A stretch of 64,000 nucleotides of DNA from Lawsonia intracellularis PHE/MN1-00 (lineage in GTDB: Bacteria > Desulfobacterota > Desulfovibrionia > Desulfovibrionales > Desulfovibrionaceae). This document shows positions 1 to 15,986 of the stretch, piece by piece; the stretch's first letter is position 1, and each line of letters starts with the position of its first letter. Below the pieces are notes generated by a model. It made no database searches. It was given only the letters and a program-made list of their open reading frames with translations, and was not told the origin of the DNA. The position numbers were made by a program, and so were the translations under genes. The DNA lies in the NCBI RefSeq assembly GCF_000055945.1, contig NC_008011.1, positions 372,001-436,000 on the forward strand, in the 5' to 3' direction.

Positions 1-324
1 TTTTTTTATATAAGTTCAAGGATTCTATCTTGAGATATTATTACATAGAAGTGACATACTTTAAAAAAAATTTTTATATTTATAGTAATCTAGTATAGAT
101 AAAAGATATATAATCTATATATTATATCACTTAAATATTACTTTAATAAATATATACTACAATGAATAAATTATCATACATTTTAATTGTGAGCTATCTC
201 AATATAGATATATAATAAAATACCATCATTATTCCTATCAGCTATAGTTTATAACATAAAGATTAATTACAAAGAATTTCATTAGTTTTTTGAAAAAAGA
301 GTAATGAAATAATATAACTAGATA
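1..324. other. Gene-free AT-rich stretch downstream of purM
   Basis: No convincing coding frame is visible on either strand. The sequence is almost entirely A and T, with short self-complementary tracts such as the TATATAATCTATATATTATA run near 106-126. The only structure worth naming is the hairpin at 276-310, listed separately. The gene to the left of the window is not seen. Confidence 0.6.
276..310 (-). terminator. Possible weak terminator hairpin after purM
   Basis: ATTTCATTA (276-284) pairs with TAATGAAAT (302-310). The loop itself contains a T6/A6 pair. It lies 15 bases past the purM stop codon, where a terminator would be expected. The stem is all A/T apart from one G-C pair and the following T tract is poor, so intrinsic termination would be weak. 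Confidence 0.35.
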
Positions 325-13644: not shown

Positions 13645-15228
13645 TTACTTTTTCCGTACTTTTTTCATATAATGTATTTGTATATACTTTAATAACAGAA
13701 TACCAATAATAACACATTCACTAAAAAGAATATGTATAAGTTTATGGCCATCTTTAAAATAAACAAAAGCCAACCAACGAATATTTGTTACGTCAATATG
13801 TCGCAGACTAAAACCTAATCCAGCAGCACATATAACTATACAGAAAGATGTAATAATCCACCTTATATTAAAATGGATTTTCCATATAGAAGATTTTATA
13901 TAAAAATATTTTTTTATACAGATTAATAAAACTATTAAAATAATAAGAAAACCAGTAATAAAAAAATTTAATGTAGACGTCAATACACTTACACATCCAA
14001 TAAGTAATAAAACTAATGTATAATACAGAATATATTTCCTTTTATATTTTAATCCAATAGAAAAAAAGAATAAAAATATACTAACTACCCCTGTAATAAT
14101 GCCTCCTAGTTCAATCATCCAGACAGGAAGCAACATTTCTAATAGTTTCATATTATAATAGCGAACAGGAAACACAGCCATAAAACATAACATGATACCT
14201 GTAGTGAAAATAATAACAGAAGTAATTGTTGGAATATGTATCCTTATATATCTCCCCATTTTGTTTAAGAATTTGATATTCTCTTGTGTTTGTTGGTTAA
14301 CTTCATACATAAGATACATAGCTGCAGCAATTATTAATGGTATGAGATAATAAATAACACGAAAGCATAATAGTGCCGCAAGGATAGCCTGGGGAGTAGT
14401 GTTTGTTAAATGAATAACCACGATCTCAAGTACTCCTGCACCTCCAGGGACATGAGTTAAGACAACTGCAACCATAGCCATTAAGTAAGTTGGAAGAAAT
14501 TGTATAAAAGATATACCTGCATCTTCTGGAAGGAGTACATATAAACATGCTGACGCTGCTACAAGATCTGCACTAGCGACAACTGCTTGAGCTATAGCAA
14601 TATTAAATGGAGGAAATGAAAACTCTTTACCAAAAATATGTACTGGTTTATGAATCAGTTTACAAATAAAAAGATATCCTGCAGCTAATGCAAATAAAAC
14701 AACACCTAATGGACGAATATCTTCAGTTGGAAAATATACTGCCAGCTCAGGAGGAATAGCTGGTGGAACAAACATAAAAATCAGTCCTGCTAGTCCAAAA
14801 GCACCAACCCAAAAAGTAATGGCAAGCATAAGGACAAGCTTTACAATTTCCATAGGAGAAAATCCCCAAGACGAATAAAGTCTATATCGAATGGTACTTC
14901 CCCCAAGTAATGCACCAAAATTATAACTTACTGCTTGCCCCACAAAAGAAACAAGTGCTACCTTCTTTAAAGGAAGTCTTTTATGAATGCCTTTTAATGC
15001 AAGCCAATCATACCCAACAAGAATTATATAATTTAAGATAGCTAGCAAAGCAGATAAAAACAAACTCCAATAAGAAATGCTTTCAACACTCATTTTAAGT
15101 TCGGAAAAACTATATTTACTAACTTCGCGATATAATAAATATACAGCACCAATAAAAATGCATGCAACAAGCATAATCCCCATTGTATGCGTCATTTTCT
15201 TAATAATTCTTACTATATCCTTTAACAT
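13645..15228 (-). CDS. MprF-like polytopic membrane protein (flippase half only)
   Basis: A 527-residue integral membrane protein of the lysylphosphatidylglycerol synthase transmembrane family. The frame is open from a TTG at 15249, but ATG 15228 has GGAG five bases upstream. The segment LVSFVGQAVSYNFGALLGGS, the RYRLYSSWGFSPMEIV turn and LTHVPGGAGVLEIVV match MprF-type flippase cores. About 12-14 membrane segments can be drawn, including the second membrane bundle that in MprF precedes the soluble synthase. The protein ends at HYMKKVRKK directly after that bundle, so the catalytic aminoacyl-transfer domain is missing. It may move lipids rather than synthesise aminoacyl lipids. Confidence 0.8.
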   Translation of the reverse strand: MLKDIVRIIKKMTHTMGIMLVACIFIGAVYLLYREVSKYSFSELKMSVESISYWSLFLSALLAILNYIILVGYDWLALKGIHKRLPLKKVALVSFVGQAVSYNFGALLGGSTIRYRLYSSWGFSPMEIVKLVLMLAITFWVGAFGLAGLIFMFVPPAIPPELAVYFPTEDIRPLGVVLFALAAGYLFICKLIHKPVHIFGKEFSFPPFNIAIAQAVVASADLVAASACLYVLLPEDAGISFIQFLPTYLMAMVAVVLTHVPGGAGVLEIVVIHLTNTTPQAILAALLCFRVIYYLIPLIIAAAMYLMYEVNQQTQENIKFLNKMGRYIRIHIPTITSVIIFTTGIMLCFMAVFPVRYYNMKLLEMLLPVWMIELGGIITGVVSIFLFFFSIGLKYKRKYILYYTLVLLLIGCVSVLTSTLNFFITGFLIILIVLLICIKKYFYIKSSIWKIHFNIRWIITSFCIVICAAGLGFSLRHIDVTNIRWLAFVYFKDGHKLIHILFSECVIIGILLLKYIQIHYMKKVRKK

Positions 15229-15399
15229 GTATTCTCCATAATTTTGCAAAACAAAGAATGTAATGTAGTCATTATGAAATTATATATTATTTCAACCTTA
15301 ACTTCATATACATTATCAACTAACTTTATTATAATATATGTAAATCTAATAGTATTTATTTCTATCTCACTAACTATAATTTTTTCCTTTCTACCCTGG

Positions 15400-15428
15400 T
15401 TGACCTGATAAGATAACTACACTATTGT
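15400..15428 (+). promoter_or_regulatory. Candidate sigma-70 promoter for greA
   Basis: TTGACC (15400-15405) is separated by 17 bases from TATTGT (15423-15428). The -35 matches consensus at five positions and the -10 at four. A start near 15435 would give a leader of about 78 bases holding the two hairpins that precede greA. Confidence 0.5.
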
Positions 15429-15433
15429 TACTT

Positions 15434-15453
15434 AGGTGATTGATTCACCTTTT
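15434..15453 (+). other. First hairpin in greA leader
   Basis: AGGTGA (15434-15439) and TCACCT (15445-15450) form a six-pair stem around a five-base loop, followed by TTT. It begins almost exactly at the inferred transcript start, so it could be a 5' stabilising stem or a weak early terminator. Confidence 0.5.
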
Positions 15454-15459
15454 AACTTA

Positions 15460-15489
15460 CCCGCTGTCAAGGCAGCGGGGGTATTTTTT
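15460..15489 (+). terminator. Terminator-like hairpin upstream of greA (possible attenuator)
   Basis: CCCGCTG (15460-15466) pairs with CAGCGGG (15473-15479) around the loop TCAAGG, and a run of six T follows at 15484-15489. This is the most GC-rich element in the intergenic region and has the full form of an intrinsic terminator. It sits between the candidate promoter and the greA ribosome binding site. No upstream plus-strand gene needs terminating, because the left neighbour is transcribed the other way. It therefore probably limits greA read-through or ends a short leader RNA. Confidence 0.7.
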
Positions 15490-15512
15490 CTAAGGTGTTA
15501 GGAGACCAAAGC

Positions 15513-15986
15513 ATGAGCATTCCTATTTCACAACAAGGTTATCAAAACCTTGAAAAAGAACTTGATCGACTTAAGAAAGAACGTCCTGCTGTTATCCAAG
15601 CTATTAAAGAAGCACGGGAAGAAGGTGATCTTAAAGAAAATGCTGGATATGATGCAGCAAGAGAACGTCAAGGTATGTTGGAAGCAAGAATAAATTATAT
15701 TGAGTCTCGTATGGCACAATTTAATATTATTGATATAACAACACTTTCTGGTGATAAAGCTATATTCGGAGCTACAGTAACTGTTGAAGATATCGACTCT
15801 GGAGAAAGAAAAGAGTTTACATTACTTGGCCCTGATGAAGCAGACTATACAAAAGGATCAATTTCTATTCAATCTCCTGTTGGTAGAGCTCTACTTGGGA
15901 AAAAAGTTGGTGACGAACTTACAGTCGATGTCCCACGAGGTCGTATTAGCTATGAAATTATAGATATCCAATTCAAACACCAATAA
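15513..15986 (+). CDS. greA: Transcription elongation factor GreA
   Basis: Rescues backtracked RNA polymerase by stimulating transcript cleavage. The product is 157 residues, close to the usual 158. ATG 15513 is chosen over the in-frame GTG at 15495 because GGAG lies eight bases before it and MSIPISQQGYQNLEKELDRL is a normal GreA start. The N-terminal coiled coil carries the acidic tip residues (EAREEGDLKENAGYDAARE), and the C-terminal FKBP-like domain ends in VDVPRGRISYEIIDI. The two leader hairpins suggest transcriptional control ahead of the gene. Confidence 0.97.
   Translation: MSIPISQQGYQNLEKELDRLKKERPAVIQAIKEAREEGDLKENAGYDAARERQGMLEARINYIESRMAQFNIIDITTLSGDKAIFGATVTVEDIDSGERKEFTLLGPDEADYTKGSISIQSPVGRALLGKKVGDELTVDVPRGRISYEIIDIQFKHQ

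Follow-up and report, generated by a model that had tools for sequence, protein, structure and literature searches.

Control of greA, which encodes the RNA-polymerase rescue factor GreA, by premature transcription termination is already known in E. coli, in which the leader RNA GraL is reported to be an array of short RNAs of 49–59 nt made from the P1 promoter (PMC6829880). In the sections of that study drawn on here, ≈2/3 of transcription is reported to terminate in the leader and about one third of the transcripts to pass, and GreA is reported to autoregulate greA: loss of GreA raises a greA reporter ≈3.5-fold and leaves the GraL level ≈4-fold lower, with the catalytic residue D41 needed for the effect. 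When the terminator arms were scrambled with their pairing kept, the GreA effect was largely lost. The same sections report that the feedback was not reproduced in vitro and that its authors propose an unknown extra factor (PMC6829880).

Attenuators in greA leaders have also been described on a broader scale. Naville and Gautheret (2010) place terminators in the 5′ UTR of greA from "Proteobacteria to bacilli and Clostridia" and, in the part of their paper that treats these leaders, report a clear antiterminator in each greA/rnk cluster (PMC2965389). Their rimP-leader is presented there as a short terminator with no visible antiterminator before a transcription-factor operon, for which feedback by a polymerase-bound factor was proposed (PMC2965389). 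The terms "Desulfo," "Lawsonia," and "deltaproteobacteria" do not occur in the main text of that paper, the species possibly being among its 302 genomes, and the main text of an RNA-seq study of L. intracellularis does not mention greA (PMC3463550). We found no transcript data for the Lawsonia greA leader in the literature, and, as judged from literature listings that covered Desulfovibrio start sites as well as greA, Desulfovibrio, and terminators, no greA leader has been described for the order to which Lawsonia belongs. To these known elements, our comparison of sequences adds a putative greA terminator leader that is common in this one order and has no visible antiterminator.

The window analyzed here is a 64-kb stretch of the L. 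intracellularis genome, in which greA (157 aa; Pfam GreA_GreB and GreA_GreB_N) occupies positions 15513–15986 of the + strand, with its ATG at 15513. The first-pass annotation had noted a promoter-like pair, a short stem, and a CCCGCTG/CAGCGGG stem with T6 before this gene, and each is present where it was placed. The predicted promoter (15400–15428) consists of a −35 element TTGACC (15400–15405), a 17-nt spacer, and a −10 element TATTGT (15423–15428). A stronger consensus promoter match, TATACA-17-TATAAT, is found further upstream at 15307–15335. At the predicted transcription start lies a 5′ hairpin (15434–15450; stem AGGTGA/TCACCT, 6 bp), hereafter hairpin 1, which folds on its own. It is followed by an intrinsic-terminator-like element at 15460–15489, composed of a GC-rich 8-bp stem, CCCGCTGT/GCAGCGGG (15460–15479), the spacer GGTA, and T6 at 15484–15489. 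About 24–25 nt, containing no ATG, separate the predicted start from this second hairpin, and promoter spacing and the U-run would together delimit a short leader RNA of ≈55 nt (54–56 nt; 15434–15489). The greA ATG lies 33 nt beyond the hairpin, preceded by a Shine–Dalgarno region (AGGAG; 15500–15507). In the fold, the U-run and the bases after it (15487–15494) can pair with the Shine–Dalgarno region (TTTCTAA ggtg TTAGGAGA, 15487–15507), and this modeled pairing may mean that the read-through RNA is also limited at translation.

This arrangement exceeds chance expectation. The leader RNA (15434–15489) folds at −22.5 kcal/mol, compared with −11.1 ± 2.6 kcal/mol for shuffled sequences, none of which was as low (0/1000), and only two of 400 shuffles of 15313–15512 produced a terminator as strong as −13 kcal/mol, the hairpin itself scoring −13.7 kcal/mol in the scan. 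Across 464 kb of the Lawsonia genome (the window plus 20 further stretches), a simple calling rule yielded 365 ORFs with a minimum length of 100 codons. In 14 of them, the last 100 nt upstream of the start contain a terminator-like element scoring −8 kcal/mol or lower, and of the 86 ORFs with a divergent upstream neighbor, greA is the only one to have such an element. The promoter match taken by itself is at chance level (8 found, 9.4 ± 3.2 expected), so support for the greA promoter comes from its conservation. For hairpin 1, shuffling the 31 nt that contain it produced a comparable 6-bp inverted repeat 60 times in 5000, and such a repeat also occurs in 21 of 200 overlapping 31-nt windows of 15229–15459, some of which include hairpin 1; since such repeats are frequent nearby, this hairpin alone is weak evidence.

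The resemblance to GraL extends to most features of the layout. In both leaders, a promoter is followed by a brief 5′ segment, 19 nt long in E. coli and ≈25 nt in Lawsonia, a terminator hairpin, a U-run, and greA, and the predicted Lawsonia RNA of 54–56 nt is close in size to the 49–59 nt reported for E. coli (PMC6829880). From sequence, conservation, and a predicted start, the Lawsonia terminator likewise lies in the greA 5′ UTR downstream of the promoter, and its hairpin with U-run is stable beyond chance. The upstream gene is divergent in each case, dacB in E. coli and a gene for a lysylphosphatidylglycerol (LPG) synthase-like membrane protein in Lawsonia. The Lawsonia protein is 45% identical to E. 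coli GreA, retains the catalytic tip (GDLKENA), and is the single match to the Gre family (PF01272) in its genome. Across the order, a search at 1e-20 found GreA in all but 18 of 257 genomes, near-complete ones being among the 18. The first-pass annotation was apt in its comparison with E. coli: the scan used for Lawsonia, applied as a control to the E. coli greA leader, recovers the known GraL terminator (−18.6 kcal/mol), for which ≈2/3 termination and GreA-dependent autoregulation are reported (PMC6829880). The two leaders differ in the distance from terminator to ATG, 102 nt in E. coli and 33 nt in Lawsonia, and the Lawsonia leader matches no Rfam family; the two sequences were compared by side-by-side reading.

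The annotation had also held that nothing upstream on the + strand needs termination, which agrees with the gene content of the window. The neighbor, an LPG synthase TM-region protein identified by Pfam and the ORF list, is encoded on the − strand at 13645–15228, and the ORF list contains no long + strand ORF just upstream of the greA leader. LPG-synthase homologs are found beside greA in 33 other loci and lie on the opposite strand in all 33. In other genera, the neighbors of greA are instead a nucleoside deoxyribosyltransferase, an ABC transporter, Bmp, or a class-II phosphodiesterase (PDEase_II), whose homologs occur beside greA in 8, 6, 4, and 4 further loci, respectively, again always on the opposite strand. 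A Pfam scan of 20 upstream ORFs gave matches in six of the 10 on the opposite strand and in none of the 10 on the greA strand. Since the upstream neighbors are of five unrelated kinds and every one is transcribed away from greA, the terminator is that of greA. The possibility that it is the 3′ terminator of an upstream gene is ruled out, as there is no co-directional gene and the neighbors diverge.

We compared 150 greA loci from the order, which comprises sulfate-reducing bacteria and relatives (156 fetched, less five duplicates and one with only 44 nt upstream); 100 of the 150 come from the best ≈150 of 239 genomes with GreA, so that genomes with a lower-scoring GreA make up too small a share. 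Within their last 200 nt, 108 of the 150 leaders contain a terminator-like element at −10 kcal/mol or lower, whereas the antisense strand has one in 15 of 150 cases and shuffled sequences in 102 of 750; at −12 kcal/mol, the counts are 106/150, 10/150, and 57/750. A TTGAC-16..18-TA promoter is found within 300 nt upstream in 133 of the 150 loci, once in 150 on the antisense strand, and twice in 150 at −900 to −600. By strict criteria, promoter precedes terminator in 95 loci, and both parts occur in at least half of the members of 25 of the 48 genera, the genus tally being the better guide here because the loci are related by descent and their counts overstate the independent evidence. The predicted start and the hairpin lie a median of 26 nt apart, the hairpin and the ATG a median of 43 nt, and the stretch before the hairpin is often shorter than 30 nt among the 95 leaders with both parts. 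Among the greA promoters, the −10 hexamer is often TACCCA (for example, in L028, L025, and L140), which is unusually weak beside the well-kept TTGACC, and a conserved ATGnnCTA lies just before and within this hexamer.

The strict terminator is missing in 42 of the 150 loci, which include L028, L112, L124, and L125, with no convincing hairpin. Several leaders of genus g21 carry a shorter hairpin just below the cutoff (−9.9). A strong hairpin with a missing or poor U-run is seen in L015, L170, L188, L190, L195, and L199 of genus g25 and in L019, L029, and L119 of genus g36, as if the terminator there had decayed or changed role. By these sequence comparisons, the predicted greA terminator is common in the order but not universal. 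Between stem and U-run, a spacer of 1–4 nt, like the GGTA of Lawsonia, separates the two elements in 59 of the 103 leader terminators that could be scored (five unscorable ones left out), in none of 13 terminators at greA 3′ ends (two left out), and in four of 16 scorable 3′ terminators of the Lawsonia genome (four left out). Such spacers agree with the leaders being leaky terminators, with the qualification that the loci share ancestry and the control sets are small. Outside the order, 30 loci from a search of the phylum gave nine terminators on the sense and four on the antisense strand at −10 kcal/mol, and we make no claim for this sample because several of these terminators lie just after the apparent end of an upstream co-directional gene. 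A set of 74 loci mostly from other phyla (L038–L111; chiefly Planctomycetes and Actinobacteria) gave 33 sense and five antisense at −10 kcal/mol, a count of terminator-like elements alone, regardless of promoter position or neighbors.

The terminator stem itself, judged by its pattern of substitution, is selected for pairing. In the stem alignment of genus g43 (12 rows, nine of them distinct), 99.1% of cells are paired, and four of the 12 base pairs have changed on both sides, a number reached in two of 500 shuffles; the covariation score was reached in none of 500 shuffles, and slid controls scored far lower. In five other groups, RNAalifold finds double changes in 2/8, 5/8, 1/37, 5/17, and 5/25 pairs, the alignments of g1 and g45 being rough. 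The Lawsonia core CCGCTG...CAGCGG recurs in the Desulfovibrio-like leaders of g45. Conservation of the stem in relatives, on which the first-pass annotation had made its proposal depend, is therefore borne out by alignment, through compensatory changes. Of the tandem hairpins described in the same annotation, both exist in Lawsonia and the second is conserved, whereas hairpin 1 is not evident by eye in the same-genus relatives L003, L004, and L006. The first hairpin may be particular to the Lawsonia species and, as it is not evidently conserved, the pair is probably not a functional unit.

We favor the reading that greA carries its own leaky terminator, at which premature termination yields a leader RNA of ≈55 nt and limits read-through into greA in the manner of GraL, and we place its probability at roughly 0.82. 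RNA polymerase would start at about 15434–15436, transcribe ≈25 nt of RNA and then the terminator hairpin, and a share of polymerases would stop at the U-run and release the leader RNA. The rest would read through, so that some messages probably end as the short RNA and only the remainder reach greA. The leader shows neither space for nor trace of an RNA sensor, so that the read-through share would depend on the terminator and on polymerase-bound factors. Among these, GreA would be the likeliest modulator, through negative feedback as reported for E. coli GraL and in line with the suggestion of the first-pass annotation that GreA could tune its own expression. By this analogy, GreA feedback on the Lawsonia leader has, in our estimation, somewhat less than an even chance of being correct. 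The analogy is weakened by the scrambling experiment, in which the GreA effect was largely lost, as the stems here differ widely.

The strongest competing explanation is that the terminator is a fixed attenuator, cutting greA output by a constant ratio without feedback from GreA or any other signal. We regard this as a credible if not the leading account: there is no antiterminator, no sensor, and only a very short stretch before the hairpin, and the stem varies in sequence while keeping its pairing. A weaker promoter would, however, be a simpler route to the same effect, and E. coli GraL is reported to respond to GreA (PMC6829880). A more ambitious form of the feedback proposal, which we consider rather doubtful, is an order-wide, antiterminator-free leader in which GreA would set termination through the position and spacing of the hairpin, and which would have arisen or been kept far from the enterobacteria. 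Polymerase and its bound factor would then be the sensor, because too few nucleotides precede the hairpin to form one made of RNA.

A leader RNA that works mainly in trans as a small RNA, with greA read-through secondary, would account for a predicted transcript that has a hairpin at its 5′ end as well as the one of the terminator, and E. coli GraL reportedly acts in trans too (PMC6829880). The stem and 5′ sequences of the leader, however, differ strongly between genera, with no hint of a conserved base-pairing target, and hairpin 1 is not evidently conserved, which makes this explanation improbable.

Slighter still is the case for a classical attenuator or riboswitch that uses an antiterminator or a leader peptide. 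Such a device would fit the clear antiterminators reported for the greA/rnk leader clusters (PMC2965389), and a leader peptide could in principle use the ATG found before the hairpin in 36 of the 95 leaders or, in Lawsonia, the GTG-started frame that runs from 15437 through the terminator. The Lawsonia leader shares with the greA leaders of that paper a terminator in the 5′ UTR but differs in that no antiterminator was found in it or in the 95 leaders: when the 3′ arm is left out of the fold, the Lawsonia 5′ arm finds no pairing partner, and pairing of the upstream stretch with the 5′ arm has a mean z of +0.30 over the 95 leaders, with two of them at z ≤ −2. With 24 nt before the hairpin in Lawsonia and no ATG among them, and with often fewer than 30 nt elsewhere, there is little room for a riboswitch or a leader peptide. 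A search of the 64-kb window with Rfam gave no match at the gathering score, the best sub-threshold hits lying far below the cutoff, and a riboswitch or T-box of a curated family was accordingly set aside. As a short terminator leader with no visible antiterminator, the greA leader resembles the rimP-leader, from which it differs in that the latter has a conserved GGGc...gCCC stem (PMC2965389) and the greA stems are conserved mainly in their pairing. Least credible of all is an insulator that ends stray upstream transcription antisense to the LPG synthase gene, since the hairpin does lie downstream of a stretch devoid of + strand genes but has a conserved promoter upstream of it (95/150 loci), would thus block its own gene, and faces neighbors that differ by genus.

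The mechanism of GraL in E. coli is unsettled, and natural leaders with the same layout, varied stems, and no antiterminator would provide a direct test of what the feedback needs. If the reading proposed here is true, control of greA by early termination would be a widespread strategy and not a peculiarity of the enterobacteria.
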